Shown here one piece after another: positions 3,070 to 29,926 of a stretch of 39,008 bases of DNA; position 1 is the stretch's first letter, and every line of letters begins with the position of its first letter. The stretch spans positions 1 to 39,008 of the forward strand of contig JAPPOR010000414.1 in NCBI GenBank assembly GCA_028817905.1, given 5' to 3'. Under the pieces are notes generated by a model, which worked only from the letters and a program-made list of their open reading frames with translations, ran no database searches and was not told the origin of the DNA. The translations under genes were made by a program, and so were the position numbers. This DNA is from Myxococcales bacterium (GTDB lineage: Bacteria; Myxococcota_A; Polyangia; Polyangiales; JAFGIB01).

Positions 3070-3099
3070 TCGTACGGCTAGGAGTGCTTGGAGGCTTTG

Positions 3100-3555
3100 G
3101 TGATCGGTGAATGGACTAAGGTAGCTTGTACGAGCGCCAAGAATGTTGCGACCACGATGGGGTTCGGGTCCTGCGAGGTTGGCGGTGGTGGAAGCGAAAT
3201 CCCGGATGGCCTGGGCGGGGCTTTTGTGCCACTCGTGGGCCAGCAAGCATCGATGCAGCTCGGCGTGATGGCTTCACCCCCGGATCAGGAATCGCTCGCG
3301 CGTATCATCCTGCAGATGGAGGATGATGAGGAGACCGATAGGGACTGCATCATGGATGCCATTGGCGAGCTTACCAACTGCATGGTCGGGCAGATGAAGG
3401 TTGCCATGCGGAAGGTCGACCCTTCACTCAAGATCGGTCTTCCTGTCTTCATCGAGGGTTCGGTGGAGGACATCGGCGGCGTTCAGCAGCGGGTCCTCGA
3501 AGCGCAGCTGGACGGCATCCCAGTCTCGATCGTCGTGCTCGCCAAGGATGGGTAG
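3100..3555 (+). CDS. cheX: CheX-like phosphatase, third in the cluster
   Basis: The protein is about 151 residues, close to a stand-alone CheX. It carries D-x3-E-x2-N in 'DAIGELTN' (D86, E90, N93 from this start), followed by 'CMVGQMKVAM', and ends in the strand 'GIPVSIVVLAKDG'. I chose GTG at 3100 because GGAGG lies 5 nt upstream. An in-frame TTG at 3088 with AGGAG only 3 nt upstream would add four residues. It lies 30 bp after the longer CheX-like gene and is probably co-transcribed with it. The motif identifies a CheY-P phosphatase family member; which CheY it serves is unknown. An intergenic repeat element begins 2 bp after its stop codon. Confidence 0.82.
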   Translation: MIGEWTKVACTSAKNVATTMGFGSCEVGGGGSEIPDGLGGAFVPLVGQQASMQLGVMASPPDQESLARIILQMEDDEETDRDCIMDAIGELTNCMVGQMKVAMRKVDPSLKIGLPVFIEGSVEDIGGVQQRVLEAQLDGIPVSIVVLAKDG

Positions 3556-4601: not shown

Positions 4602-6839
4602 GTGGAGGGGGTCGCCAGTCTGATTCAGAGGATCACCGCCGTTGTGACGGCGGATTCCCTATCACGCGCTGATTTCGACTCCTTAGAGGCCCTGTTCAAG
4701 ACGCTACTGGACTTCGGCTGCGCTGCCGCCGACGACGACCTGGTCGCCTGCGGTGAGGAGGGTCTCGAGCTGCTGAAGCGTGCCCGCGAAGCTGAGGACC
4801 TGGCGGAGATGAAGGAGCAGCTGGGTGAGTACGCGGCGGCTCTTGCCACGGCGTATGCCGAGGACCAGCCGCCCCAGGCGTCTGAGACCGTCGCGATGGG
4901 TTCAGACCACTCGGACCCAACGCTGCAAGGAGTTCCCGAGGTCCCGGCTGCGGTCGAGCCCAATGCTCCCGAATCTGAGCGGCCGGCACCTGTTCCACTG
5001 GTGGACGCCGCGATGGCGGCGGCGAACCTGTCGCTCCGAGAGGAGGAGTCGGAAGAAGACGAGCTGCGGGACCCGGAAATACTGGCCGAGTTCGTCATAG
5101 AGGCCAATGAACACCTGAGCGAGGCCGAAGGGCATCTGCTCGCATTGGAGACCGATCCGACCGACAAGGCCGCCCTGGGGGCCCTGTTTCGCGGCTTTCA
5201 TACCATCAAGGGACTCGCCGGATTCTTGGCCTTTCCGGAGGTCGAACGCTTGGCGCACGCGGCCGAGGATCTGCTCGCACTTGCCCGCGACGAGCGCGAC
5301 CGGCTCCCCGCCGGCGCATCGGACCTGATCTTCGAAGCCGCCGACTGCCTTCAACGGTCGATGGAGGCGATCAAGACGGCATTCGAAGCGGGCGAAGCCC
5401 CCCGGGGGATTGCGGCGCCGCAGTTGATTGAACGGATCAAAACTCTTTGGTCAGAGACGCGGGGTCCCGCGAGTGTCGCAGGGGGGCCGCCAGTGCCGGA
5501 GGCGATCCCGCGCCCCAGCGACGACCCAACGGACAGCGAGCCGAGCGCAGACCTCGGCAGCGACGCTCCCGGTGTAGAGCTGGGCTTCGCGAAGGTCCCT
5601 GGACCCGATGAGCCCCGTACGAATACCGGCCAGGCCGGTGGCAGCCGCGCAAAGCGGGAAACCATCCGGGTGGACGCGGAGCGTCTGGACCGACTCGTGG
5701 ACATGGTCGGCGAACTGGTGATCACCGAAAGCATGGTGACACGCGGTGTGGGGGAGCTTTCAGCAGCATCGAGTCTCGTGCGCCACCTGGGTCGTATGGA
5801 TAAGATCACCCGGGAGCTTCACGAACTCGCCGGTTCTCTGCGCATGATCCCGGTTCGGTCGACCTTCCGCAAGATGGCTAGGTTGGCCCGGGACGTTGCA
5901 CGGAAGTCGGGGAAACGTGTGTCGTTTGAAGTTCACGGAGAGGAGGCCGAGCTCGACAAGACTCTGGTCGACCGGATCGGGGACCCCCTTGTGCACATGG
6001 TGCGCAACGCGATCGATCACGGCCTAGAACCGAACCCTGAAGCGCGCGTCGCAGCCGGCAAGCCACCCGTCGGCAATGTCACGCTCCGGGCGCTTCATCG
6101 GGGAGGAAGCATCTACATCGAGGTGGAGGACGACGGCCGCGGCCTCGACCCGGAAAAGATTCTCTCACGTGCGGAAGAGCGGGGTCTAATACGACCGGGG
6201 GAGATCCTCGGAAAGAGGGACATCATTCGGCTTATTTGCGAGCCGGGCTTTTCCACTGCGGAACAGATTACCTCCATTTCCGGTCGCGGCGTTGGGATGG
6301 ACGTTGTCCGCCAGCAGATCGAGGCGATGAACGGTAGCCTCGAAGTAGAGTCGGAGCTCGGCCGCGGTACCTGTTTCTCCATGCAGCTGCCGCTGACCCT
6401 CGCTGTCATTGACGGCATGGTCATGCGGGTCGGAGAGGATCGCTTCGTTGTGCCGACGCTCTCGGTGGTTCGATTGGTCCAGCCAGGCTCCACCAATATC
6501 TGTACGGTTCTCGGGCGCGGAGAGGTTCTGAGGCTCGGCGACCATCTGGTGCCCGTGGCGCGACCGGATGAACTCTTCGAGATCGAGCTGAATCGCGACC
6601 GCGACCCGATGGCGATCGTTGTCGAAGTCGACCACGGGCAGGTCGCCATGTTGGTCGACGAGCTGTTGGGACAGCAGCAGGTCGTCATCAAGAGTCTGGG
6701 TGAAGGCCTTGGAGACGTCCCCGGCATCGCCGGCTGCGCAATTATGCCGGACGGGCGAGTGGGTCTTGTGCTCGACATCGGTGGCATCGTTAGAAGACGT
6801 CAGGCGGGGCTCAGCGAGCCCCCGCGAGAGGTCGGCTAG
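4602..6839 (+). CDS. cheA: Chemotaxis histidine kinase CheA (first copy)
   Basis: The 745-residue protein has an unusual N-terminal helical region (1-85) and acidic linker before the HPt (P1) domain at about 155-265, with phospho-His H200 in 'GFHTIKGLAGF'. No recognisable P2 domain is seen in the 280-350 linker. The dimerisation region is about 352-415 ('RLDRLVDMVGELVITESM'). The ATPase has N469/D472 in 'VRNAIDHG', 'DDGRG' (510-514), 'GRGVGMD' (561-567) and 'GRGT' (587-590). A CheW-like domain fills about 600-735. It should autophosphorylate under control of receptor and CheW, then pass phosphate to CheY and CheB. The GTG start has AAGGGGGGA just upstream. cheW follows after 28 bp. Confidence 0.95.
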   Translation: MEGVASLIQRITAVVTADSLSRADFDSLEALFKTLLDFGCAAADDDLVACGEEGLELLKRAREAEDLAEMKEQLGEYAAALATAYAEDQPPQASETVAMGSDHSDPTLQGVPEVPAAVEPNAPESERPAPVPLVDAAMAAANLSLREEESEEDELRDPEILAEFVIEANEHLSEAEGHLLALETDPTDKAALGALFRGFHTIKGLAGFLAFPEVERLAHAAEDLLALARDERDRLPAGASDLIFEAADCLQRSMEAIKTAFEAGEAPRGIAAPQLIERIKTLWSETRGPASVAGGPPVPEAIPRPSDDPTDSEPSADLGSDAPGVELGFAKVPGPDEPRTNTGQAGGSRAKRETIRVDAERLDRLVDMVGELVITESMVTRGVGELSAASSLVRHLGRMDKITRELHELAGSLRMIPVRSTFRKMARLARDVARKSGKRVSFEVHGEEAELDKTLVDRIGDPLVHMVRNAIDHGLEPNPEARVAAGKPPVGNVTLRALHRGGSIYIEVEDDGRGLDPEKILSRAEERGLIRPGEILGKRDIIRLICEPGFSTAEQITSISGRGVGMDVVRQQIEAMNGSLEVESELGRGTCFSMQLPLTLAVIDGMVMRVGEDRFVVPTLSVVRLVQPGSTNICTVLGRGEVLRLGDHLVPVARPDELFEIELNRDRDPMAIVVEVDHGQVAMLVDELLGQQQVVIKSLGEGLGDVPGIAGCAIMPDGRVGLVLDIGGIVRRRQAGLSEPPREVG

Positions 6840-6867
6840 CCGACACATCGTAGAACGCGAGGAAACC

Positions 6868-7407
6868 ATGGAACAGACATCGGTGAGCGCAGCCGCAAAA
6901 GAGGTGGGCGCGGCAGAAAAGAAGGGTGGAAAGTACCTTACGTTCGAGCTCGGCCAGGAAGAGTACGGGCTCGAGCTTCTGCGTGTCCGCGAGATCATCG
7001 CGCTGATGGACATCACGTCGGTTCCACTCACGCCGCCGTACGTGCGCGGTGTCATGAACCTCCGAGGAAAAGTGATTCCGGTTGTGGACCTGCGGTGCAA
7101 GTTTGGCATGGAGCGCACTGAGGATCACGACCGCAAATGCATCATCGTCGTGGACGTGCTGAAGGGCGACCAAGCGATTCAGATGAGCATTCTGGTGGAC
7201 GCGGTCTCTGAGGTCCTCCACATCGACGAGGCTGACATCGAAGTGGTGGCCTCGATCAATGCGGGGCTTGAAGCCGATTTCATCCAGGGCATGGCGAAGG
7301 CCAAGGGGGGCGTAAAGATCCTCCTCAATATTGATGCGGTCCTATCGAGTGTGGCGACCGTCGACATGCAGTCCATCGTGAACCAGGCGAACGACGTCGA
7401 AAGCTGA
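6868..7407 (+). CDS. cheW: CheW coupling protein
   Basis: The 179-residue protein is a single CheW domain after a short Ala/Lys-rich N-terminus. Typical signatures are '[21 protein letters not shown]', cut here to its two beta strands around 'FELGQEEYG', then '[18 protein letters not shown]' and '[10 protein letters not shown]'. It links MCPs to CheA. The ATG at 6868 is preceded by GAGGA at a good distance, whereas reading further upstream would run into the cheA coding region in another frame. It lies between cheA and the PAS-MCP gene, so these three probably form one signalling array. Confidence 0.94.
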
Positions 7408-7426: not shown

Positions 7427-10117
7427 ATGGCACAGCGAAAGAAGAAGCAAAACGTGCAGACGACCGTTGTGGAGCACCTTCCGGTTGCTGCCTTCGCCGT
7501 CGATGCGAGCGGCAAGATCGTGTATTGGAATGAGCGAGCCGCCCAAGCCACCGGTCGGGCCGCGGAGGATGTCGTCGGCAAGCTCGCCTGGCGTGCTTTC
7601 TACGACAAGAGGACGCCAACGCCGATCGATGACGCCTTGGACGGGGATGGCTCCATCGAGGAGCAGCTCACGTTCTATCGCACCGATGGGGAAGAGGTTA
7701 CGGCGACGCTGAGCGTGACGGCGGTGGCCGCGGGTGGCGATGTGGCTGCGGTGGCAACCCTGGCTGACTCAGGGGAGCAGGAGTCGGCCTGGAAGGGCGC
7801 GATCGAAGGGTCCGCGACCCCAATGATGATGATCGACCTGGACCGGGTGATTACCTACGCCAATCCGGCGACTGAGGCCTTGCTCTCCGCACATCTCGAA
7901 ACGTTCAAGACGGCCTTTCCCGGCTTCGACGCTTCGAGGGTCGTGGGTAGCTGCATCGACCAGTTCCACAAGCGCCCCGAGCACCAGGCACGGCTACTCG
8001 CTGACCCGAACAACCTTCCGCACAAGGCGGACATTCGCGTTGGGGAACTAACTTTTGAGTTAAACATTTCGGCTACGCGCGACGCTGCTGGCAACCACAT
8101 CGGAGCAACACTCGAATGGCAGGACGCGACGGCGGAGCGCGCCCAGGAGGATCAGGCAGTCCGGCTCCAATCGGCCATCGACGGATCGGGCACGCCCATG
8201 ATGATGGTCGACCTGGACCGAGTGATCACGTACGCCAATCCGGCAACCATGGAGCTGCTCCGCAAGAACCGCGAGACCTTTTCCCGAGCGTTCCCAGGCT
8301 TCGACCCGGAGGCCGTCCTGGGGGGCTGCATCGACCGGTTCCACAAGAACCCGGATCATCAAGCGCGAATTCTTGGCGACGCCCGCAATCTTCCATACAC
8401 CGCCGATATCAAGGTCGAGGATCTCACATTCGAACTGAAGGTGTCTGCGATGCGCGACGCGCGCGGAGAGCACATCGGTGCGTGCCTCGAATGGCAGGAC
8501 GTGTCTGATGCGCGGCAGAAGGCGGTGGACGCAGCGCGCATGAGCTCGCAGATCGAGGGCTCGGGTACCTCCGTCATGGTGTGCGATACGGACCGTATCA
8601 TCACCTACTTCAACCCCAAGCTGCGAGCCATGCTGAGCAAGTACGAGGCCGAACTTCGGTCGGTATTTCCGGGCTTTTCGGTGGACAAGCTCGTCGGTAC
8701 CAGCATCGATGACTTCCATCGCAACCCATCCCACCAGGCAGGTCTGATGACGGACTTCAACCGTCATCCGCTGGAGACAGAGGTCAGCGTCGGAGGGCTG
8801 GAGTTCGGGCTGAACTTGACGTCGCTCTATGATGCGAACGGCAAGCACATCGGCAACGCCGTCGAGTGGGTCGACAACAACGACCGCGCAACCTATCGCA
8901 ACGAGGTCAACAAGGTCATCGATGCCTGCAAGGCCGGTCAGCTGTCGGAGCGTGGCGAGACGAGCCGGCTCAACGACGTCTACCGCCCGATGATGGAAGG
9001 CATCAACGAGGTCATCGATGCGCTGGTCACGCCCGTTCAGGAGGCAGGTCGCGTCATCGCGAGGCTATCTGGCCAGGACCTGACCGCGCGCATGACGGGT
9101 GAGTATCAGGGTGACAACGCGGTCATGAAGAATAACATCAACCAAATGGCGGATGTGCTGGAGACCGCGCTCGTCGGGGTCGGCCAGACCGCCGACCAGG
9201 TCAAGGCCGCGAGCACCCAGATAAGCTCAGGAAGCCAGAGCCTGTCGCAGGCCACCAACGAGCAGGCGAGCTCGCTCGAGCAGGTGTCCAGTACGATCGA
9301 GGAGGTCAGCTCGATGACCGAGCAGAACGCGAGTAACGCCAACGAAGCCAAGGGCCTCGCGGACGCTGCTCGCGGGGGGGCCCTTGGTGGCAAGAAGTCG
9401 ATGGACAACCTTTCGGATGCGATTGCGCGCATCAAGGGCTCGTCCGACCAGACGGCCAAGATCGTCAAGACGATCGACGAGATCGCGTTCCAGACCAACC
9501 TCCTGGCACTGAATGCGGCGGTCGAGGCTGCTCGGGCGGGGGATGCCGGAAAGGGCTTTGCTGTAGTTGCGGAGGAGGTTCGGAGCCTTGCTCAGCGCAG
9601 CGCGGAGGCCGCCAAGAATACCGCCGAGCTGATCGAGGGCTCGGTCAAGAACGCCGACTCGGGTGTGCGACTCAGCGAGGAGGTGGCTCAGCAACTCGAC
9701 GAGATCGTGACCGGTTCGACCAAGGTGAACGACATCGTGGCCGAAATCGCGGCGGCGTCTAACGAGCAGGCCAAGGGCATAGGTCAGATCAACCAAGCGA
9801 TCGGTCAGATCAACAAGGTGACTCAGCAGAACGCGGCGAATTCCGAGCAATCCGCTAGCGCTGCCGAAGAGCTGGCGGCGCAGGCCGGACAGTTGTCGAC
9901 GATGGTCGGACGCTTCAAGGTCAGCCGCTCGGTGGGCGGCATGGCCGCCGGTGGGGAGGCGATGTTCGACGAGGCGCCGCGGGCTGCCGCACCCACCCTG
10001 TCTGTCGTCCGCAGTGAGGCCACCAGCAACGGTCACGGTCGTTCCTCGGCGGCGGGTGGAGGGCTCCGGCCGGAGGACGTCATCCCGCTTTCGGAAAGCG
10101 ATACTCGGGACTTCTGA
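7427..10117 (+). CDS. Cytoplasmic MCP with four PAS units, three in tandem
   Basis: The 896-residue receptor has no membrane segment. A first PAS spans about 12-114. Three modules at exact 125-residue spacing follow (about 118-242, 243-367, 368-492). Each has 'FPGF', a His pair in 'ID.FHK.P.HQ' (H181/H186, H306/H311, H431/H436) and a late Trp in 'EW.D' (W231, W356, W481). In Aer2-type PAS domains a helix His binds heme and a late-strand Trp contacts O2, so gas sensing is a reasonable inference. HAMP-like helices (about 492-600) lead to the signalling bundle with tip '[18 protein letters not shown]'. The tail ends in SDTRDF, a possible tether for adaptation enzymes. cheR follows after 16 bp. 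Confidence 0.92.
7778..8902 (+). repeat. Three tandem 375-bp PAS-encoding modules
   Basis: Within the MCP gene, three consecutive 375-bp units encode the PAS modules. Landmark residues recur exactly 125 codons apart: His at 181, 306 and 431, and Trp at 231, 356 and 481. Units one and two are most alike ('[16 protein letters not shown]'); the third is more diverged ('[17 protein letters not shown]'). This indicates internal duplication. Confidence 0.85.
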
Positions 10118-10133: not shown

Positions 10134-10964
10134 ATGGCGGCAGCAGGACGAGAGATCCAGCAGGAGCTAGACGAGGCAACGTTCGTCGCCATCCGTCGGA
10201 TCGTCTTCGAGCAAAGTGGCATATCGCTCAAGGGCGACAAGCGGACACTGGTGGCGGCGCGCCTCGGCAAGCGCATGCGGCGGTTGGGGATCCCCACGTA
10301 CCGGGCGTACTTGCAGCGGCTGCGAGATTGCAGGACCGGGGCGGAGCTGACGTTTCTGCTAGACGCCATCTCTACCAACGTGACCTCTTTCTTTCGGGAG
10401 GCTGACCACTTCGACCTGCTGCGGTGTGCGTATGGCGAGTGGCGCGGAAAGGGCCAAACCCGCTTCCGAATCTGGTGTGCTGCGTCTTCTAGCGGAGAAG
10501 AACCCTATTCGATGGGAATCACGCTGCACGACGTGGGCGTGCGCGGGTGCGACGTCAAAATTCTCGGGACCGATATCTCGACAGAGATTCTTCGCAAGGC
10601 CATGCGGGCGCGCTATGCCAAGAAGTCCATCGAGCCCGTGCCTGTGCTTCTGCGAGACCGCTATTTCAAGCGGCTGGCGCCGGATGAGTACGAAGTCACG
10701 CCAGCTGTTCGAGACATGGTTGTCTTCAGACAAACCAACCTTAGCAAGCTTCCGACCCCTCTGAAGGGGCCGCTCGACGTGGTCTTCTGCCGCAATGTGA
10801 TGATCTATTTCGAGGATGCGCTTCGGCGCAGGTTGGTCGAGGAGTTCGAGCGCCTGCTGAAGCCCGAAGGATATCTGGTGGTAGGACACAGTGAGAGTCT
10901 CGTGGGCATGCAGGGGGGACTCAAGATGGTCCGACCGTCGGTCTATCGGAAGGGTGGCGCATGA
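10134..10964 (+). CDS. cheR: MCP methyltransferase CheR (first copy)
   Basis: The 276-residue enzyme transfers methyl groups from S-adenosylmethionine to receptor glutamates. An N-terminal helical CheR domain (about 12-80, ending 'ISTNVTSFFREADHF') precedes the SAM-binding domain with 'CAASSSGEEPYSM', 'ILGTDIST' and 'DVVFCRNVMIYF'. The late 'GYLVVGHSESL' also matches the family. Its stop overlaps the cheB start by four bases (ATGA), indicating translational coupling of methylase and demethylase. The likely substrate is the PAS-MCP just upstream. Confidence 0.96.
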   Translation: MAAAGREIQQELDEATFVAIRRIVFEQSGISLKGDKRTLVAARLGKRMRRLGIPTYRAYLQRLRDCRTGAELTFLLDAISTNVTSFFREADHFDLLRCAYGEWRGKGQTRFRIWCAASSSGEEPYSMGITLHDVGVRGCDVKILGTDISTEILRKAMRARYAKKSIEPVPVLLRDRYFKRLAPDEYEVTPAVRDMVVFRQTNLSKLPTPLKGPLDVVFCRNVMIYFEDALRRRLVEEFERLLKPEGYLVVGHSESLVGMQGGLKMVRPSVYRKGGA

Positions 10965-12004
10965 CTATTCGCGTGCTGGCCATCGACGACTCCGCGGTGG
11001 TCCGATCGGTTCTCACACGGATCCTCTCCCGGGACCCAGAAATCGAGGTGGTGGGCACGGCCCCCGACCCGTTTGTGGGCCGCGACAAGATCGTGCAACT
11101 GCAGCCAGACGTGGTCCTGTTGGACCTCGAGATGCCGCGCATGGACGGGATCACCTTTCTGCGCAAGCTAATGAGCGCCAAGCCGATGCCCGTACTGGTC
11201 GTGTCATCGCTGACCAGAGACAACAGCAAGATCATGCTCGAGGCGCTCTCGGCAGGCGCGGTTGACGTGGTGTCAAAGCCCCGTGGCGCGCACACCTTGG
11301 AAGAGGTTGGCGTTGAGCTGATCGAAAAGATCAAGTCGGCTCGCCACGCCCGGGTCCAGCGCCGTGCGGCGTCCACGAGCGTTCAGCAGCCCGCCAAACT
11401 CGCCCACTTCGACGCGTCTCACCAGGTGGTTGCGATTGGCGCATCCACTGGTGGAACCCGGGCCCTTGAGGATGTGCTGATGGGGCTGCCGGCGGGGGCT
11501 CCGGCGACGGTGGTCGTGCAGCACATGCCGGAGGAGTTTACCCGCAGCTTCGCCCAACGACTCGATGAGCTCGGGGCCATGCGAGTCAAGGAAGGGGAGC
11601 ACGGTGACATCTTGGCGCCGGGTACCATGGTGATTGCGCCGGGTAATCAACATATGGAGCTTGTGCGTTCGGGCGCGCTCTTCAAGCTGCGGCTCCACGA
11701 TGCTGCGCCGGTGCGGCGTCATCGGCCCTCCGTCGACGTGCTCTTCCAGTCGGTGGCGGTGGCGGCGGGCCGGAACGCGCTCGGTGTACTGTTGACTGGT
11801 ATGGGTGACGACGGTGCTCGGGGCCTTCTAGCGATGCGCAAGGCCGGCGCGAAGACGGTTGCGCAAGACGAGGCCTCTTCGGTGGTGTATGGCATGCCCA
11901 AGGCCGCGGTGGATATTGGTGCTGCAGACAAGCAGCTTGCCCTCGGGCAGGTCGCGCCGGCGATCATGAACTGGGCCACCAGTGCCCGTGCAAAGGTGGG
12001 GTGA
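10961..12004 (+). CDS. cheB: Receptor methylesterase CheB (first copy)
   Basis: The 347-residue enzyme has an N-terminal receiver (D9/D10, phospho-acceptor D55 in 'VLLDLEMPRMDG', K107) and a C-terminal methylesterase. The catalytic triad is visible as S162 in 'IGASTGG', H188 in 'VVQHMP' and D284 in 'TGMGDDG'. It removes methyl groups from MCP glutamates, and can deamidate glutamines, when phosphorylated by CheA. It overlaps cheR by four bases and directly abuts the next gene, whose GTG follows its TGA without a gap. Confidence 0.96.
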   Translation: MTIRVLAIDDSAVVRSVLTRILSRDPEIEVVGTAPDPFVGRDKIVQLQPDVVLLDLEMPRMDGITFLRKLMSAKPMPVLVVSSLTRDNSKIMLEALSAGAVDVVSKPRGAHTLEEVGVELIEKIKSARHARVQRRAASTSVQQPAKLAHFDASHQVVAIGASTGGTRALEDVLMGLPAGAPATVVVQHMPEEFTRSFAQRLDELGAMRVKEGEHGDILAPGTMVIAPGNQHMELVRSGALFKLRLHDAAPVRRHRPSVDVLFQSVAVAAGRNALGVLLTGMGDDGARGLLAMRKAGAKTVAQDEASSVVYGMPKAAVDIGAADKQLALGQVAPAIMNWATSARAKVG

Positions 12005-13228
12005 GTGCGCGCCCTGGTAGCCGACGACGAAGCCACCAACCGGATTCTGCTCAAGCGGCTATTGGGCAAGTGGGGCTACGACGTCGAGGTGGCGGAGAAT
12101 GGTACCCGGGCGTGGGAGGTCCTGTCCGGAGACGACGGGCCCCGCTTGGCCGTACTCGACTGGCAAATGCCGGGGATCGACGGGGTCGATATCTGTCGCC
12201 GCCTGAAGGGCCAACGCGGAGATGGCTACGTCTATACGGTTCTCGTCACACACAAGGCCGGTAAGAATGACCTTTCGACCGGTTTGGATGCCGGAGCTGA
12301 CGACTTCATCCGAAAGCCGGTTGATCCGGCGGAGCTCCGAAGTCGGCTAGGCGTCGCCAAGCGTGTGTTGGCATATGACGCCAAGCTCGCCGACACCAAC
12401 CGGCTGCTACACCAGTACGCCGCCGAGATGGAGGCGCTCGCAGAGGAGCGGGCGAAACAGTTGGTCCACGCTGACAGAATGGCAACACTGGGAGTCCTGT
12501 CAGCGGGGGTGGCGCACGAAGTCAATAACCCGGCAACCTTTATTTCGGGCAACGCGCAGACGCTCGAGCGCTTCTGCAAGGACCTGATTCCCTTGCTCGA
12601 CGGTCAGGTGGAGAAACTGCCGGCTGAGGACGCACGGAAGGTCAGATTCATTCTGGAGGAAGCACCAGCGACGATCGCTGGGATCCAAAACGGCGTCGCG
12701 CGCATTGCCAAGATCGTGAGCGGGTTGAAAGCGTACGCGCGCCAGGAGCGGGGTGAACGCTCCCTGTGTGCGCTTGCCGAATGTGTCCAGCGGGCAACCG
12801 AGCTATGCGCGTTTCAGCTCGGCCAAAAGAGCGTGCTGATCGAGAGCAAGGTGGACGAGACATTGCCCCAGGTGCGGGTTGATGCGCAGCAGATCGAGCA
12901 GGTGCTCGTCAATCTGATCGTGAACGCGGCGGACGCCATGGATGGACGCGACGATGCGACCATCCGAATCTCATCGGTGGTTGAAGGGGATATGGTCGTG
13001 CTGATCGTCCAGGACAACGGTCCGGGGATCCCGGAGACAGTGATGTCGAAGGTGTTCGACCCGTTCTTTACCACCAAGGCTCCGGGCAAGGGCACAGGGC
13101 TGGGGCTATCCATTTGCCGGAGAATCGTGGACGACCACGCGGGCCGGCTCTCCGCGCACAACCTCGCGGAAGGGGGAGCGCGTTTTCGAGTGGCGTTGCC
13201 GTGGGGGGCGGAAGGGAAAGTGGCATGA
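12005..13228 (+). CDS. Receiver-histidine kinase hybrid (REC-HisKA-HATPase)
   Basis: The 407-residue protein starts with a receiver (acceptor D52 in '[12 protein letters not shown]', K104), then a coiled helix (about 125-155), a HisKA domain with H171 in '[14 protein letters not shown]', and a HATPase with '[12 protein letters not shown]', 'VQDNGPGIP' and '[13 protein letters not shown]'. No sensor or membrane region is present, so its input is probably phosphorylation of its own receiver, perhaps by a CheA. The phosphate may go to the single receiver encoded next, which overlaps it by four bases (ATGA). This would give a side branch off the Che pathway. The start is the GTG directly after the cheB stop, with AAAGGTGGGG upstream. 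Confidence 0.92.
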
Positions 13229-13662
13229 AGGGGCGGATTCTGGTCGTCGATGACGAGCGCGAGATTCGAGATTTTCTCAGTCGGCACCTTCGGTACTGCG
13301 GCTATGAGGTGGAAACCGCCTGTGACGGCGTCGAGGCCCTCGAGAAATTGGAGCAGGTGCGGGTCGACGTGATGGTCTCGGACATTCGCATGCCGCGGAT
13401 GGATGGAGTCATGCTCTTGGAGCACGTCCGCAGGGAGTTTCCGATGGTCCGTACGATTATGATTACGGGCTATGTGGCGCAGGAAGCGATCCTTGCGTGC
13501 ATGCGAGAAGGGGCGGAGACGTGTGTCTTCAAGCCGCTTGAGGACCTGTCGGAACTCGAGGACGCCGTAGAAGCCGCTGTCAGCGTCATCCGCAAGTGGT
13601 GGCAGATTCTCGGGAACCTGCGATCGGTGCGGCCGGACCAATCGGGGGCCGGCGGTGGATAG
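13225..13662 (+). CDS. Single-receiver response regulator
   Basis: The 145-residue protein is a receiver with D9/D10, acceptor D53 in '[11 protein letters not shown]' and a Lys in 'VFKPLEDL'. After the receiver a short helix ('[15 protein letters not shown]') and Gly-rich tail follow, with no DNA-binding domain. The ATG overlaps the stop of the receiver-kinase gene (ATGA), which suggests the two are partners. Its own end overlaps the start of the second cheA by eight bases. It could relay or drain phosphate between the kinase and CheA. Confidence 0.9.
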
Positions 13663-15772
13663 CGATTCTGAAGAGATCGATCCAGAGATCTTGATGATCT
13701 TCATCGAGGAGGCGCTCGAGTCCCTCGCTGAGCTGGATACACGTTTCCTGGCCCTGGAAGAACGGCCGGACGATCGCGAGAGCTTGGCCGCGATCTTTCG
13801 GGTGATGCACACGATCAAGGGGAACTCGGCCTTCTTCGGGCTGATGCGCGTCAAGAAGCTCGCGCATCAGATGGAAGACCTGATGGCGCTCATGCGCGAG
13901 GGGCGGGTAGCGGCTGGCCCCAAGCACATCAAGGTGATGCTCCGCGGGCTCGATGCACTGCGAAGTATGCTGTGCTCGGTGCAGAGTGGCGGCGCGGAGG
14001 GTGCAGGGTTCGCGAAGGACGCGTATCAGGCGCTGCTTGGTGAGGTGGCAGGGCTGTGCACGGAGGGGGGGAAGGCAGGTAACCCGATCGCATGTGTGAT
14101 CGAGGAACTCGACGCCATCCTGGCCGGGCCGGTGGACTTCCAGGTGATGCGCGAGCGGCTCAAAGCCCTGCGGGCAGGCCTCCAGGACCTCGAGGCGCCG
14201 AACAAGCTGGATGATGGGCTTGCCCGGGATGCGAGCCCGGACCCGAAGACAGAGCTGCGGCGGATTCTCGAGCGGCCCTTCGACGACCAGATGCCGGAGC
14301 CGGACGCAAGGCGGGTAAACGAGCTGCTCGCGGCCCTGAGGGAAAGCGCAGACGGTGCCGCGGGCGAGGTGCTCGAACGATTGCGAGGGGAGCACGACCG
14401 CCTGATCGCTGAGGTTGGCTTTACGGACTTTCTGGCACAAGGGCTTCTGTCAGGGCTTGCGGAGCTCGAAGCGCTTGCGCAAGGGGCGCAGGACGGCCCG
14501 GGGCCTGAAGCGCCTGAGCCGGAGGGGCCGGAGGTCGACAGCGCAGAAGAGGGAAGTTCGGATCGCAAGCGGCGGGACGCGGTGGCCCGCAGTATGCGGG
14601 TGGACGAGAGCAAGATCGACGAGTTCTTGGACTATGTGGGAGAGCTCATCATCGTCCGAGAGATGTTCGTGAATGTGGGAACGCGTCTGAGGGAAACCGC
14701 GGAGAGCAGCTCACTGTCTGCCGAGTATCAGCGCGCGCTCGAGGCCTTCACGCTTCTTTCTCACAGCCTTCAATACAGCATCATGGAGATTCGTAAGGTG
14801 CCCGTGAAGGCCGCGCTTCAAAAGGTTCCCCGGCTTGCGAGGGACCTGGCAAGCGCTCGCAGCAAGCACGTCCGGGTCCGGATCGTGGGCGAAGAGGTGC
14901 CGATCGACAAGAGCCTGTTGGAAGCACTCGAAGGCCCCCTCACGCATATGATTCGCAACGCCGTCGACCACGGGATCGAGGTACCGAGTGAACGTGAAAA
15001 AGCCGGCAAAGATCCGACCGGGACGCTGTCCGTATCGGCGTTTGAGGATCCGGACCATGTGCGGCTCGAGGTGACCGATGACGGCGGGGGGATCAATGTC
15101 GACAAACTCAAGGCCAAGGCGACCGCCTGCGGGATCATCACGCAGGTGCATGCCCAACGGATGGGAGACGACGAAGCGCGCAACCTGCTGTTTGCGGCCG
15201 GGTTGAGCACGGCGGCCGAGGTCACCGACATCTCTGGGCGCGGTGTGGGTATGGATGTCGTCCGCCGGAACGTCGTGGACCTCGGTGGAGAGATCACCAT
15301 CGAGAGCGAACTCGGGAAGGGTACGACGTTCTGTCTGGTTCTACCGAAGGCGGTCACAGTTCAAATCCTCGATGGCTTTCTGGTGCGCGTGGCAGGTCAC
15401 CGCTTCGTGCTTCCACTGGGCACGATCCGGGAGTCGTTTCGGCCTGATGCGACCCATGTGGTGACGGTTGCGGAACGCGGAGAGTTCATCAGCAGGCGCG
15501 GGCAGGTGTTCCCGCTCGTTCGCTTCGGGGATGTGTTGCGCCTGGGCGGCTCACGGACAGCGCCGGAGGAGGCGATCGTGGTGTCGGTGGACTTGGGCGC
15601 GGGCGCCTCTGCCGGGCTCTTGGTGGATGAAGTGTTGGGTGTGCAGCAGGTGGTCTTGAGGGAAGTGCACGGGATCCAGGACCAGAGCTCGCCCTTCTCG
15701 GGGGGAGCGGTACTCGGTGATGGTCGTGTTGCCATGGTGGTCGATGTGGACCATCTGGGAGGCCTGGTCTGA
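13655..15772 (+). CDS. cheA: Chemotaxis histidine kinase CheA (second copy)
   Basis: The 705-residue protein has an HPt domain at the very N-terminus with H52 in '[14 protein letters not shown]', a long helical middle (about 130-300) of unclear fold, a dimerisation region ('[18 protein letters not shown]'), an ATPase with 'IRNAVDHG', 'DDGGG', 'GRGVGMD' and 'GKGT', and a C-terminal CheW-like domain. Every kinase motif is intact. It starts at a GTG overlapping the preceding receiver gene by eight bases and is followed after 3 bp by the CheD-receiver gene. No separate cheW or MCP gene lies in this sub-block, so it probably shares CheW and receptors with the first CheA, or takes another input. 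Confidence 0.94.
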
Positions 15773-15775
15773 AGC

Positions 15776-16687
15776 ATGCGCAAGGAATTCCTGCTTCCAA
15801 CGGACATGGTGAACGCCCGGGGTGAGGCTCATTTTCGGACGTTGCTGGGCTCGTGCGTCAGCGTCTGCTTGTCCAATGTGCGGCGAAACATCTTCGCGAT
15901 GAACCACTTCATGCTCCCCACCAATCCCGGACGGGATGACGTGGGGAGGTATGGGGACACTGCCACGGACCGTGTGGTTCGAACGCTCATGGCGGTGGAT
16001 CCAGATGTGAGCCATTACTGGGTCGGGGTGTACGGCGGAGCGTCCGTGACGGGGCATCTCGGTGCGGAGAGCGGCATCGGCGAGCGGAACGTCAAAATGG
16101 CGATAGCGGTGCTGCGCCGGCACGGGCTCGTGGTTCGTGAATCGGACGTGGGCGGCCGACTTGGCAGGAAGGTCGACTTTTGGACAGCCGAAAACCGTGT
16201 GCACTGTCGCTCGATCGAGGAGGACCGCGTGGCTCGCATGGGGGGAGCGGCGAAGCCGAGCCGACGCGGCCAGGGCTTGCGGGTTCTCGTAGTCGACGAC
16301 TCCGCCGCGGCCAGAGCGGTGATCCGGGCGGGGCTGGAGCAGGCGGGCATGCACGTCATCGGGGAGGCCGCGAATGCGTTCGATGCCCGCGAGTTGATCG
16401 TCCGGGATCGGCCAGACGTGGTGACCTTGGATCTCGAGATGCCCATGATCAACGGGCTCGCATTCCTGCGTCAGCTCAACAAGCATTTCCCGCTTCCGGT
16501 CGTTGTGGTCTCTTCGAGTGCGCCGTCCGGATCGGAGCGCGCGCGCGAAGTTCTCGAGGCCGGAGCCCAGGCCGTCGTCGACAAGGCCGACCTGGACATG
16601 TCCCGCGGAACGACGAACGTGGGACGGGTGTTGGTGCCGCGAGTCAAGCTGGCCGGCCTATCACGGCTTGTCAGCGACGGCCGTTGA
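15776..16687 (+). CDS. cheD: CheD fused to a receiver domain
   Basis: The 303-residue protein has two domains. Residues 1-155 are CheD, the receptor glutamine deamidase: C27 in 'RTLLGSCVSVCL' and H44 in 'MNHFMLP' are the expected catalytic Cys and His, and 'GGASV', 'IGERNV' follow. Residues 167-285 are a receiver with D174/D175, acceptor D219 in 'VTLDLEMPMING', S247 and K270. This receiver resembles the CheB N-terminus ('VVVVSSSAPSGS') but no methylesterase follows. In other bacteria CheD is controlled by binding CheC; here phosphorylation of an attached receiver may control it instead (inference). It lies directly after the second cheA, a likely phosphodonor, and before a CheY gene. Confidence 0.92.
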   Translation: MRKEFLLPTDMVNARGEAHFRTLLGSCVSVCLSNVRRNIFAMNHFMLPTNPGRDDVGRYGDTATDRVVRTLMAVDPDVSHYWVGVYGGASVTGHLGAESGIGERNVKMAIAVLRRHGLVVRESDVGGRLGRKVDFWTAENRVHCRSIEEDRVARMGGAAKPSRRGQGLRVLVVDDSAAARAVIRAGLEQAGMHVIGEAANAFDARELIVRDRPDVVTLDLEMPMINGLAFLRQLNKHFPLPVVVVSSSAPSGSERAREVLEAGAQAVVDKADLDMSRGTTNVGRVLVPRVKLAGLSRLVSDGR

Positions 16688-16709: not shown

Positions 16710-17111
16710 ATGCGTTGTTTGATTGTGGAAGATGAGTTCACGAGCCGGAGAATTCTGCAGCGAATTCTCCAGGATTTCGGCGAGGCCGACGTGGCGGTCG
16801 ACGGGGGGGAGGCCGAAGACGCCTTCTGTTTGGCGCTCGATGAGAAGGCCCCCTACGACGCTGTCTTCTTGGACATTATGCTTCCGGGAATGGATGGGCA
16901 GCAGGTGCTCGAGGCCCTCCGACGGGCGGAGGCGCAGCGCGGATACGACGTAGGGACCGGTGCGAAGGTCATCATGACTACGTCGCTCAGCGACGCGACG
17001 AACGTGATGCGTGCCTTCCGTGGTGGGTGCGAATCGTACCTGGTCAAGCCCATCGAACGGGACAAAGTAGTCGAAGAGCTTACCAAGCTCGGTCTACTGA
17101 ACGCGGCCTAG
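16710..17111 (+). CDS. cheY: CheY-type response regulator
   Basis: The 133-residue receiver has E7/D8, acceptor D55 in 'VFLDIMLPGMDG', a Thr pair in 'IMTTSLSD' and a Lys in 'SYLVKPI'. I chose the ATG at 16710 with GGAGGG a few bases upstream; the reading frame stays open further upstream only as a shadow of the CheD-receiver gene. It is the last gene of the first chemotaxis run, 22 bp after cheD-REC, and a likely phosphate acceptor of the second CheA. Confidence 0.93.
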   Translation: MRCLIVEDEFTSRRILQRILQDFGEADVAVDGGEAEDAFCLALDEKAPYDAVFLDIMLPGMDGQQVLEALRRAEAQRGYDVGTGAKVIMTTSLSDATNVMRAFRGGCESYLVKPIERDKVVEELTKLGLLNAA

Positions 17112-19395: not shown

Positions 19396-21663
19396 ATGGA
19401 TGAGCTTGACGACATAGTTCGGGAGTTCCTGGTAGAGAGCTCGGAGAATCTCGACCAGCTCGAGCGCGACCTCGTTCAGCTGGAGGACACACCTGACGAC
19501 CCGGACCTTCTGGCGAGCGTCTTCCGAACCATCCATACGATCAAGGGCACCTGTGGGTTTCTCGGCTACACGAAGCTTCAAGGAATCACCCACGTGGGTG
19601 AGAACCTGCTGAGCAAGGTCCGGGATGGGGATCTTCGTCTGAGCGGCGACGTCGCCACGGTCCTGTTGGACATGGTCGACGCCGTTCGCGAGATCTTGGC
19701 GCAGATCGAGGGGACCGGGACAGAGGGGGACACGAACTACACCGCTTTGGTGGCGCGTCTGGAAGCGCTCGTCGAAGATGCCCCGGCTGATGCGCTCGAG
19801 ATCTCGCCAGAGCTTCTGCGATCTCCCAGTGCCAGCAACGAAGCGCTGTCCGAGGAATCAGTACTCTCATCGGGCCCCGAAAGTGCGGAAACGGTCGAAG
19901 CGGTGTCCGTCGGTCAGCCGCCGCCCTTGCCGGCTGCACCGCACATCCAGAAACCCGCTCCACGGTCCGACGGCGGCCAGGCCCCCCGGCAGGGCGTGCA
20001 AGCGGTGGATTCCAGTATTCGCGTTCACGTGGACCTGCTGGACCGTTTGATGAACCTGGTCGGCGAGTTGGTACTGGCGCGCAATCAGATCGTGCGCCTC
20101 GCGGAGGAGCTCCGCGACCCAGCGTTGTTAGCCACCACCCAGCGCCTCAATCAGGTTACCAGCGAGTTGCAGGAAGGCGTCATGACGACTCGCATGCAGC
20201 CGATCGGGACCCTCTGGACCAAGTTGCCGCGGGTCGTGCGGGAGCTCGCAAGGGGCTTCTGCAAGCAAGTGCGGGTGGAGATGGAGGGCGAGGAAACGGG
20301 GCTCGATAAGACCCTGATCGAGGCCATCAAGGACCCGCTGACGCATCTGGTCCGAAACGCTGTCGACCATGGGCTCGAGCTGCCCGACGAACGGATGGCC
20401 GCATGCAAGGAACCGGAAGGTACGCTGCGCCTGCGTGCCTATCACGAGGGGGGACAGGTCAACCTCGAGATTTCGGATGACGGTGCGGGGATCGACCCCG
20501 TCAAGCTCATCGCACGTGCCGTCGAACGTGGGCTCATTGCGTCGGAACGTGCGGAAAAGCTCACCAAACGCCAGGCCCTCAACCTGCTGTTCTTGCCAGG
20601 ACTGTCGACCGCCCGAAAAGTGACCAACATTTCCGGTCGCGGCGTTGGCATGGACGTCGTGAAGAACAACGTCGAGCGCATTGGTGGATCCATCGACATT
20701 GCGACCGAGGTGGGTGAGGGCACGACGTTTCGCCTCAAGATTCCCCTCACCTTGGCGATCGTCCCCGCCCTCTTCGTCCGGGCTGGTGACCAGCGCTACG
20801 CGATTCCACAGGTGAACCTGCTCGAGCTGGTGCGTCTGGAGCGGGAGGAGGAACTCGAGGAGATCCATGGCTCGCCGGTATTTCTTCTGCGCGGGCGTCT
20901 GCTACCGATTCTGAACCTGGGTAGAGAGCTGGGGCTGCTCGACGTCGCGGATACTGGAGAACGTGGCGTGCGGCACATCCTGGTGCTACAGGCGGAGGAC
21001 CAGCGCTTCGGATTGGTGGTCGATGACGTGCAGGACACGGAGGAGATCGTCGTCAAGCCGCTGGGCGAACATGTCAAGGAGATCGGGGCGTTCGCGGGGG
21101 CCACGATCATGGGTGACGGCCAGGTGGCGCTGATCCTGGATGTCGTCGGGCTCGCGCAGCGAGGGGGCATCGCGCGTCGCGTGGAGAACAGCGAGCCGCC
21201 TGATGCGCTGGGTGACAGTCTTGCGTGCATCGACGAATCGACGTCGCTGCTGATAGCGGAGGGGGCTGCGCGCGTGTGCGCCGTTCCGCTCGAGCGCGTG
21301 CAGCGCCTCGAGGAGATCAGTACCGAGCGTGTGGAGTTCGTGGGTGACCAGGCGGTGTTCCAGTATCGCGGTGGAATCCTTCCGCTGATCTACCTCGATG
21401 ACGCGGATGCGGATGACATCGGTGTGGAGGCACTGCAGGTGGTCGTCTTCGACTACCGTGGGCACTCCGTCGGGGTCGTCGTCCGGAGGATCGTTGATAT
21501 CCTGTCGGAACACATAGACGTTCGAGGTGTAGGTATCCGCCCAGGGGTCGCGGGGACTGCGATCATCGGCGACTGCGTGGTCGAGGTGATCGACCTGGAT
21601 GGGCTAGCGGATCTTCGCGGCCTGCAGCTGTCGGGGCAAACGGCGCTTCGGGAGGCAGGATGA
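19396..21663 (+). CDS. cheA: Chemotaxis kinase CheA with two CheW domains (third copy)
   Basis: The 755-residue protein has an HPt domain with H47 in 'RTIHTIKGTCGFLG', a proline-rich linker (about 140-200), a dimerisation region ('LLDRLMNLVGELVLARNQ'), and an ATPase with 'VRNAVDHG', 'DDGAG', 'GRGVGMD' and 'GEGT'. A first CheW-like domain covers about 456-590 and a second, more diverged one about 607-745 ('RGGILPLIYLDDAD', 'VVVDIV'-like strands). CheA normally has one such domain, so the second may add a binding face for CheW rings or other partners. The ATG has only a weak SD. Its stop overlaps the next cheW start (ATGA). Confidence 0.94.
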   Translation: MDELDDIVREFLVESSENLDQLERDLVQLEDTPDDPDLLASVFRTIHTIKGTCGFLGYTKLQGITHVGENLLSKVRDGDLRLSGDVATVLLDMVDAVREILAQIEGTGTEGDTNYTALVARLEALVEDAPADALEISPELLRSPSASNEALSEESVLSSGPESAETVEAVSVGQPPPLPAAPHIQKPAPRSDGGQAPRQGVQAVDSSIRVHVDLLDRLMNLVGELVLARNQIVRLAEELRDPALLATTQRLNQVTSELQEGVMTTRMQPIGTLWTKLPRVVRELARGFCKQVRVEMEGEETGLDKTLIEAIKDPLTHLVRNAVDHGLELPDERMAACKEPEGTLRLRAYHEGGQVNLEISDDGAGIDPVKLIARAVERGLIASERAEKLTKRQALNLLFLPGLSTARKVTNISGRGVGMDVVKNNVERIGGSIDIATEVGEGTTFRLKIPLTLAIVPALFVRAGDQRYAIPQVNLLELVRLEREEELEEIHGSPVFLLRGRLLPILNLGRELGLLDVADTGERGVRHILVLQAEDQRFGLVVDDVQDTEEIVVKPLGEHVKEIGAFAGATIMGDGQVALILDVVGLAQRGGIARRVENSEPPDALGDSLACIDESTSLLIAEGAARVCAVPLERVQRLEEISTERVEFVGDQAVFQYRGGILPLIYLDDADADDIGVEALQVVVFDYRGHSVGVVVRRIVDILSEHIDVRGVGIRPGVAGTAIIGDCVVEVIDLDGLADLRGLQLSGQTALREAG

Positions 21664-25746: not shown

Positions 25747-26997
25747 ATGCAGGAGGCTAAGGTTCGGGTCGATGAAAGGCCTGTCGTGTGTGTGGGGCGC
25801 CAGGCCATCCTGGACCAGGATCGAAAGGTCGTCGGCTACGAGCTTCTCTACCGCGATAGCAGCAATTCTCAGCGAGCGAATGTCATTGACGACACCGCGG
25901 CCACCGCAACAGTAGTGGTGAACACGGTTGCGGAGATGGGATGTGAAACGGTCGTGGGGAAGCGGGACATGTTCATCAACTGCAGCCGCGAGGTCCTGGA
26001 GCTGGATCTCGGCACGCTTCTTCCCCCGGACAAGGTTGTCCTTGAGATCCTGGAGAGTGTTGAGGTCAACGAGTCGCTGATCGAACGTATCGACGAATTG
26101 CGTGGGATGGGTTTTCGGATCGCCCTGGACGACGTCGTGACCGAGGACCCCCGCAGTCAACTCGTCGAGCACGTCGACTTGGTCAAAGTCGATCTCATGT
26201 CGGTGCCAGAGCGAAGTCTCGAGCGACTTGTGAAGACCGAGCTGCGCGGTTTCACTGGCCAGCTGCTGGCGGAGAAGGTTGAGGATGAGCCCATCTTTGA
26301 GCTCTGCCGCGGCCTCGGTTTCGGGCTGTTCCAGGGCTACTTCTTCTGCAAGCCGAATGTGGTCGCGCAGAAGGCATCACCCGAGGACCGCAGCAACGTT
26401 ATCCGCATTCTCAGTGAGGTCAGGCGCCCCGATATCACGGTCGACGAAGCCGTCGAGCTGATCCGCCAGGACGTGACCGTGAGTTATCGTCTGCTCAAGT
26501 GCCTAAACTCGGTGGTGTTCGGCGTACGACATCCGGTCGAGTCGTTGCGCCAGGCGCTGGTCCTCCTGGGAATGCCACGAGTCAGGGCGTGGCTCTCGCT
26601 CATGGCGCTATCGATGGTGAAGGGTAAGTCGAGCGAGCTCATGCGACTCGCCCTGGTCAGGGCCAATATGTGCCAGGAGCTGGCTCGCGTATGCCAGATC
26701 GGAGAACCGGACACGCTCTTTACGGTGGGGCTGCTGTCGGTACTCGACGCGGTGCTCGACTTGCCCATGGGGGAGGTTCTCGAGCAGTTGCCCCTGTCAG
26801 AGACGATCAAGCATGCCCTGCTTGGGCAGGCCTCCCCGGAAGCGGACGTCCTCGGCTCCGTGCTGGAGTACGAGCAAGGGCAATTCGTCCGAGCTGTCTC
26901 CGAGCGAACGGGAATCGACCTCGACGCCCTGAGCACCGCATGGCTGGTCGCGGTACGCAGGGCGGACAGTACGGCGTCCGCGCTGCTTGACTGCTAG
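25747..26997 (+). CDS. EAL-HDOD signalling protein
   Basis: The 416-residue protein has an EAL domain (about 12-205) and an HDOD domain (about 210-400). EAL motifs are altered: 'YELLYR' keeps E-x-L-x-R, 'EILES' stands for the ELTE region, 'ALDDVVTED' for the DDFGTG loop, 'KVDLM' for KID, and 'AEKVED' for AEGVE. The late 'FQGYFFCKP' is typical. Such EAL-HDOD proteins (YuxH/CdgJ type) are often inactive as c-di-GMP phosphodiesterases and act by binding; I cannot settle activity here. It closes the second chemosensory operon and ties it to c-di-GMP signalling. It ends 23 bp from a convergent small gene. Confidence 0.92.
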   Translation: MQEAKVRVDERPVVCVGRQAILDQDRKVVGYELLYRDSSNSQRANVIDDTAATATVVVNTVAEMGCETVVGKRDMFINCSREVLELDLGTLLPPDKVVLEILESVEVNESLIERIDELRGMGFRIALDDVVTEDPRSQLVEHVDLVKVDLMSVPERSLERLVKTELRGFTGQLLAEKVEDEPIFELCRGLGFGLFQGYFFCKPNVVAQKASPEDRSNVIRILSEVRRPDITVDEAVELIRQDVTVSYRLLKCLNSVVFGVRHPVESLRQALVLLGMPRVRAWLSLMALSMVKGKSSELMRLALVRANMCQELARVCQIGEPDTLFTVGLLSVLDAVLDLPMGEVLEQLPLSETIKHALLGQASPEADVLGSVLEYEQGQFVRAVSERTGIDLDALSTAWLVAVRRADSTASALLDC

Positions 26998-28585: not shown

Positions 28586-29926
28586 CTAGGCCAGGCCTCC
28601 AAGCATGGCAGCGAGCTGGGCCCCCTGCCCTTGAGCAAGGCTCACAGCTGTCTCCATAGCCGTGAACTCCGCGCGGATGCGATCCTCGAAGTCCCCGATC
28701 CGCAGCTCCATGCGTGCGATCTGGTCGTCGAGGTTATCGATGCGTAGGTCGATGCCCTTCTTGCGGGTGGTGATCAGGCCATCGGTCGAGTTCGTCAGCT
28801 GGTCGATGGTCTCATCCATGAGCGCCATCAGGCCGTCAGTACTCGTACTCTCATCGCCTGCCAGTAACTTCGAGACCGCTTCCGGGTCATCGGCGAGCGC
28901 CTCTTCGAGCTCCGTGCGCTCGAACTCGAGCTTGCCGGCGCGGTCGATCGAGACCCCGATACTAGCCAGGTAGTTGTAGGGGGAGCTAAGGCCGTCGACG
29001 GTGTCTATCAGCGTGTTGCGCAGGTTGCGTGACACGGTCCGTACGGTGGAGTCACTCGCCAGGCTGTCCCCCTCCTGGGAGTCCCGTGACAGTTCATAGG
29101 CGACGCGTTCGTTTACCGCATTGTAGGCGTTGACGTACTCCTGGACCAGATCCGCGAGGGCATCGGGGTCGCGCTGGACAGTGACCTCGGCGGCTCCCGT
29201 GGTCTGGGCCCTGAGATCGAGCGTGACACCGGAGATGGCGTCCGTGATCAGGTTGGTGGAGCGCGAGACGTCAAAGCCGTCTACGACCAACTCGGCATCT
29301 TGGGCCGCCTGAACCTCCGCGAGGTTGAGCCCGATGCCCGTGTCGCCAGTGAACGCGATTGTCTGATCCGCGCCGGTGTTGTTACCGGTGATCTGGAGCC
29401 GGTAGCCGAGGTCGGTCGACAGCACGCCGGCTGTCACGTCGGCACCCGACGCGTTGATCGCCGCTGCCAATGAATCCAGGGTCGTGTTGGCGTCCACGTC
29501 GACGGTGATTTCGCTCTCCGACCCAACCGTGATGCCCAGCGTTCCGGCGGTTAGCAGTCCCGCCTCGTCGCTCGCGGAGAAGGGGTCGCTGTAGGAGCGC
29601 TCGGCTTTGGCCAGCTCCGAGACCGTGATGCTATAGGTGCCAAGCGACGCCCCGCCGTCCGCTGTCACAGTGAGGGCGTCGTCCTGGCTGGAACTGGCGC
29701 TCGAGGTCAGAACCTTGGTGCGCTCGTCGAGCGCTTCACCCTTGGTCTGAAGGGTGCTGAGCAGTCCGGAGAGCGTATCGAGTTTGGACTGCTTGCCCCG
29801 CAGGTCCGTCTGCTGCTTCTCCATGCGGGTGATCGGCTGGCGTTCGATCTGAACCAGGCCACGAACGATCGAGGCGGTGTCGATGCCTGACGCGATGCCG
29901 CTGAATGAGAAGAGCGGTTCAACCAT
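28586..29926 (-). CDS. fliD: Flagellar filament cap protein FliD
   Basis: The 446-residue protein has the conserved N-terminal 'FSGIASGIDTASIVRGLVQIE' start (seen as 'SGIASGIDT') and helical region for filament binding, a central Ala/Thr/Asp-rich variable part with 'ITGNNTGADQTIAFTG', and a C-terminal coiled region ('RIDNLDDQIARMELRIGDF'). It caps the filament and helps flagellin fold outside the cell. The C-terminus is rich in Gln, Ala and Gly ('GQGAQLAAMLGGLA'). It follows fliC after a strong hairpin and precedes fliS by 37 bp. No separate promoter was recognised. Confidence 0.94.
   Translation of the reverse strand: MVEPLFSFSGIASGIDTASIVRGLVQIERQPITRMEKQQTDLRGKQSKLDTLSGLLSTLQTKGEALDERTKVLTSSASSSQDDALTVTADGGASLGTYSITVSELAKAERSYSDPFSASDEAGLLTAGTLGITVGSESEITVDVDANTTLDSLAAAINASGADVTAGVLSTDLGYRLQITGNNTGADQTIAFTGDTGIGLNLAEVQAAQDAELVVDGFDVSRSTNLITDAISGVTLDLRAQTTGAAEVTVQRDPDALADLVQEYVNAYNAVNERVAYELSRDSQEGDSLASDSTVRTVSRNLRNTLIDTVDGLSSPYNYLASIGVSIDRAGKLEFERTELEEALADDPEAVSKLLAGDESTSTDGLMALMDETIDQLTNSTDGLITTRKKGIDLRIDNLDDQIARMELRIGDFEDRIRAEFTAMETAVSLAQGQGAQLAAMLGGLA

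Follow-up and report, generated by a model that had tools for sequence, protein, structure and literature searches.

What does a receiver domain do when it is joined, in a single polypeptide, to the chemoreceptor deamidase CheD? The question is raised by a gene of a Myxococcales bacterium, found in a stretch of 39,008 nucleotides (contig JAPPOR010000414.1) that was analysed as a whole and is referred to here as the window. The gene, which has an ortholog in a second genome (labeled G333 and described below), is composed as follows.

15776..16687, + strand: cheD-receiver fusion gene, 303 amino acids, open from the ATG at 15776 to the stop at 16687; ortholog in G333
15776..16216, + strand: CheD domain, amino acids 1–147, with T22, C27, and H44 (PF03975, alignment with 2f9z_C, residues read)
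16217..16273, + strand: linker, amino acids 148–166, poorly conserved (identical to G333 at 5 of 14 aligned positions)
16274..16684, + strand: CheB-type receiver and tail, amino acids 167–303, with D174, D175, D219, S247, and K270 (PF00072, NF001965, tree, residues)

An earlier note on this DNA had described a CheD with intact Cys27 and His44 followed by a complete receiver with D219, S247, and K270, and this description holds: all of these residues, together with T22, D174, and D175, were read directly in the protein, and both Pfam models score above their cut-offs, i.e., PF03975 for CheD (amino acids 46–145, E-value 1e-16, 61.5 bits versus a curated cut-off of 25) and PF00072 for the receiver (amino acids 170–270, E-value 1.1e-20, 74.2 bits versus 30.2). 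T22, C27, and H44 are what we take to be the catalytic residues of CheD, while the acidic pair, the phospho-acceptor Asp, the Ser/Thr, and the Lys by which a response regulator is recognized are D174/D175, D219, S247, and K270. The only solved CheD that matches the fusion, T. maritima 2f9z_C (E-value 1.5e-13), aligns with it from the LGSC motif onward, and the best NCBIfam CheD model, NF010013, gives 84.7 bits, below its cut-off of 223, these models being lineage-specific equivalogs. An AlphaFold model of the fusion (mean pLDDT 63.8) is good in the receiver and poor in CheD, and gave no usable interface between the two.

The earlier note had also asked for the same fusion to be sought in relatives, and one further genome of a 377-genome phylum sample carries it. 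The CheD search of this sample gave 52 match rows in 42 genomes, and all 50 frames behind them, the window's own included, were screened for a receiver, which is present in two: the fusion of the window and that of G333, which belongs to the same class but to another family. A profile of both fusions run against 317 genomes of the class was matched at full length in the same two only, among the matches listed; the CheD-receiver fusion is therefore rare, at 2 of 377 genomes in the phylum sample and 2 of 317 in the class among those matches. Searches of a phage collection returned single-domain matches and no fusion, and viral contigs searched for the fusion returned no matches. A genome scan with exact short peptides pointed to four Pseudomonas loci, of which the one inspected matches through the chemoreceptor peptide QAGMHVIG and is no relative; such a scan is no proof of absence.

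The two fusion proteins are 45% identical and both keep all the catalytic residues. CheD (70 of 147 positions identical) and the receiver (48 of 102, 47%) are equally conserved, and the linker less so (5 of 14). G333 carries an additional stand-alone CheD (L024), and the window's genome has the fused CheD only. The E-values, taken with the orthologous fusion in a second genome, exclude a chance match. That the fusion is an artefact, be it an assembly or frameshift error or a gene yielding two products through internal initiation in the linker, is extremely improbable: the window's linker does hold a GAGGAGG stretch 5 nt ahead of an in-frame GTG (V152), but the second assembly has the same in-frame fusion with a linker that lacks this stretch. 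The G333 ortholog rules out an assembly error or separate genes, and an internal start, although possible in the window, is not conserved in G333.

Regarding the kind of receiver involved, the earlier note had likened it to the regulatory half of CheB without the methylesterase, a likeness that was borne out. The NCBIfam CheB model NF001965 gives 108.7 bits over amino acids 168–297, compared with 48.3 for the highest-scoring CheY model among those listed, and the best solved-structure matches of the receiver are those of CheB (1a2o, 6ymz, 3t8y). In a tree of 79 receivers, built on few columns, with open forks, and with rows from the window (win_RR3 left out), the window's genome, the phylum sample, and plasmids, the fusion receiver lies inside a 43-row CheB-type clade (support 99/98), apart from the CheY-like rows. 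The scores and the tree rule out a CheY-type identity, and by sequence the receiver is of the CheB type. The methylesterase domain PF01339 is absent from the fusion in the Pfam search, and for this reason the protein is not a CheB. Both fused receivers read Lys-Ala-Asp-Leu at K270, where 75 of the 79 aligned rows have Lys-Pro; beyond these two, the Pro is replaced by Ala in one Novosphingobium CheB and by Ser in one row.

The setting of the gene is a chemotaxis operon, in which the fusion stands, as the earlier note had stated, directly behind the second cheA, its start codon lying 3 nt past the cheA stop. The other members of the operon are the following.

4602..6839, + strand: first cheA; ortholog in G333
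6619..7407, + strand: cheW, open reading frame as listed; the true start is probably downstream, with the CheW domain from ~6931
7427..10117, + strand: Aer2-like chemoreceptor with Glu-Gln heptad pairs; probable substrate
10134..10964, + strand: cheR
10961..12004, + strand: complete cheB (receiver and methylesterase)
12005..13228, + strand: receiver-histidine kinase, with a conserved counterpart in the operon of G333
13655..15772, + strand: second cheA, with the Hpt histidine present, separated from the fusion by 3 nt; likely phosphodonor
16710..17111, + strand: response regulator behind the fusion, also in G333

In G333, the best matches to cheA, cheW, the chemoreceptor gene, cheR, cheB, the receiver-kinase, cheA, and the response regulator occur in the same order. 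The response regulator follows the fusion after 22 nt in the window; in G333 both junctions are overlaps, of one base between the 3' end of cheA and the fusion and of four between the fusion and the next response regulator. Gaps that depend on guessed starts of cheW (6862), a response regulator (13231), and the G333 cheA (9577) are left out of the comparison. The CheAs of the operon carry Hpt histidines, and in its receptor a heptad motif that we take to be of the methylation type is matched four times in succession within one methylation helix, each time with a Glu-Gln or Glu-Glu pair. This receptor scores 696 bits against the cut-off of 1200 of the Vibrio Aer2 model. There are five receptor matches in the window's genome and three in G333, so that a test of substrates would be small. 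F7/Aer2-type clusters, as described in parts of one source (PMC7184735), likewise combine an Aer2-like receptor with cheA, cheW, cheR, cheB, and cheD; their order is cheR, cheD, cheB, whereas in the window cheD is fused and placed behind the second cheA, and a receiver-kinase is added.

Several further features of these loci deserve mention. The sensor part of the operon receptor is swapped between the two genomes, with PAS domains in the window (7427-10117) and a protoglobin on the same signalling part in G333 (L063 3895-6051). The PAS domains show FHK-P-HQ-like motifs, which are presumably of the heme type. A third CheA of the window (19396-21663) ends in two CheW domains, two CheX-like phosphatases lie near the cluster (1294-1863, − strand, and 3088-3555, + strand), and G333 has a CheX-like phosphatase two genes after the fusion. 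The window also encodes an EAL-HDOD protein (25747-26997) and a protein that combines a ParA-type ATPase with a PilZ domain (33816-35150). A fliD gene lies near the che genes (28586-29926), G333 has fliD too, and the che cluster may thus serve flagellar motility.

The earlier note had proposed that control by CheA phosphorylation takes the place of CheC binding. The CheC contacts of CheD are M101/F102 in PMC3513319, and this Met-Phe pair (GGASMF in T. maritima CheD) is replaced by V91-T92 in the window fusion and by Val-Val in G333. A CheC search gave no match in G333, and the sole match in the window's genome, L077 (G000:C714:33737-33844), lies on another contig, toward the C terminus of a frame that encodes a hybrid histidine kinase-receiver. 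With the contact pair replaced and no stand-alone CheC in either genome, CheC is an unlikely partner of the fused CheD, as far as sequence can tell, and to this extent the proposal stands. The change was not made by this protein, however: only 2 of 58 aligned CheDs have the Met-Phe pair, and the passages of PMC3513319 on CheC-less species likewise report CheDs without it. The absence being common, the fusion would add control to a CheC-less CheD rather than replace CheC in this lineage. Among the CheD homologues, the catalytic Cys is replaced by Ser in L056 and L058, by Gly in L054, and by Thr in L059; these four may be inactive CheDs, and L056 and L058 lie directly upstream of a CheB. Another, L036 (G376:C204), has two CheD matches in one open frame and is possibly a tandem CheD.

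The reading that we prefer, and to which we give a probability of roughly 0.55, is that a receiver phosphorylated by CheA controls the engagement of CheD with receptors. The fusion would be a response regulator with the chemoreceptor deamidase CheD as its output domain, and we infer a phosphotransfer step, a gating step with its sign, and a substrate. A CheA of the same operon would hand a phosphoryl group to D219, and the state of the receiver would set whether CheD engages receptors, above all the Aer2-like one encoded in the operon. The logic would more probably be that of CheB, with the unphosphorylated receiver restraining CheD and phosphorylation freeing it, and as a result the conversion of Gln to Glu would track kinase activity.

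Gating by phosphorylation is favored because the phosphorylation site and the CheD residues are complete in both orthologs despite their 45% identity, and because CheD and the receiver are equally conserved and the linker less. It is also favored by the CheB type of the receiver, by the Hpt-bearing CheAs of the operon and the translational closeness of the fusion to one of them, by the operon order kept in G333, by the receptor's Glu-Gln pairs in heptads of the methylation type, and by the lack of both a CheC-contact phenylalanine and a stand-alone CheC. Moreover, CheB itself is activated through phosphorylation by CheA, according to sections of PMC12654446 in which the receptor specificity of CheD is also described. 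Against this, the CheB receiver packs on the methylesterase, which the fusion lacks, and the mechanism of CheB may not carry over; in addition, deamidation may already be carried out by the complete CheB of the operon.

Receivers bind CheA anyway, and the fused one could mainly serve as a docking arm, recruiting CheD to the array of CheA and receptors, with phosphorylation minor or serving for release only. The short, poorly conserved linker and the altered loop after K270, which is Lys-Ala in both fused receivers and thereby also a point against the preferred gating, are consistent with such an arm; yet it would not need D219, D174/D175, S247, and K270, all of which both orthologs keep, and we consider it unlikely. 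The same residues weigh against a receiver that acts as a phosphate sink, competing for the phosphoryl groups of CheA, or that is a decaying remnant with no effect on CheD. The fused receivers do sit on longer branches of the receiver tree than the operon CheBs (0.79 versus 0.44 and 0.34), but their identity of 47% equals that of CheD, other receivers of the operon could act as a sink, and a sink or a remnant is very unlikely.

The sign of the control could also be the reverse, phosphorylation withdrawing CheD from receptors, so that the fusion would be a built-in CheC/CheY-P and CheD binding, not catalysis, the working step. The precedent is B. subtilis, where, in the account given in parts of PMC3513319, the binding of CheD outweighs its deamidase activity and CheY-P removes it via CheC; control of CheD runs the other way there, which also counts against the preferred gating. 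The receiver is of CheB descent, where phosphorylation activates, and the CheC-contact residues are not kept in the fusion; withdrawal is for us quite unlikely, and activation, by analogy with CheB, the likelier sign of the preferred gating.

As to how such a protein arose, 20 of 48 unfused CheD loci of the phylum sample have a CheB-type receiver downstream in the fetched stretch, in nine cases at no more than 220 nt from the CheD domain, and 6 of 48 have one upstream. A plasmid search with the fusion matched 199 records, and among the best 20 of these, one single-piece match spans both domains: BFD69062.1, 350 amino acids, annotated as hypothetical, on plasmid pBdHAGR1 of Bdellovibrio sp. HAGR004. 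It is 34% identical to the fusion over 299 positions and has CheD and receiver in one chain; unlike the fusion, it retains a stump that aligns with the methylesterase start, and a scan of its flanking genes showed a CheW-domain gene but nothing else of a che operon. Inside a match of 61/178 identities to the CheB of the window, this tail is in register with the beginning of the methylesterase, although by itself it is below significance; a stop follows the stump, and no continuation was found downstream. This methylesterase-like stump points to a fusion of cheD with cheB and loss of the esterase, and we infer as the simplest history that a cheD and the cheB adjoining it downstream were fused and the methylesterase was then lost. 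The CheDs of the window and G333 form a clade (support 100/99), and the tests do not reject a group of these two plus Bdellovibrio, either with CheD (p-AU 0.657) or with the receiver (p-AU 0.117). The two fused receivers form no clade on the best receiver tree, and a constraint keeping them together is not rejected (p-AU 0.413); the trees are compatible with either one or several origins of the three fusions.

Compared with known systems, the fusion shares its domain and catalytic residues with the CheDs of T. maritima (2F9Z) and B. subtilis, from which it differs in having a receiver and in lacking the CheC-contact Met-Phe. With CheB it has in common the type of receiver and the expected logic of a receptor-modifying enzyme phosphorylated by CheA, but its receiver is C-terminal and its output enzyme is CheD instead of a methylesterase. 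The CheC/CheD/CheY-P loop of B. subtilis, described in portions of PMC3513319, feeds kinase output back on CheD, as is proposed for the fusion; control is exerted there through CheC in trans, and here the receiver is in cis. A CheA-CheY fusion is reported in passages of PMC2577667 that mention no CheD fusion, the relevant portions of PMC2829493 leave CheD out, and extracts of other works give context (PMC3447774, PMC9239204, PMC9321776, PMC11940527, PMC12270135). In the openly licensed full-text literature that was searched, no description of a CheD joined to a receiver was found. Che proteins with a fused receiver are a long-familiar arrangement, of which the CheD-receiver version is apparently undescribed.

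The literature considered here does not settle by what means CheD is controlled in species that lack CheC. A CheD tied to a receiver phosphorylated by CheA would give direct feedback from kinase activity to receptor deamidation, along a path that could be rebuilt in vitro from few proteins. The fusion might even be read as a 'Rosetta stone', a tentative and on balance doubtful proposal in which, in CheC-less bacteria with adjacent cheD and cheB, CheD would be under trans control by the CheB receiver, the link being covalent here. If this were true, deamidation and demethylation would be two outputs of one phospho-switch, and it is such a link between CheB and CheD in ordinary CheC-less pathways that the fusion suggests.
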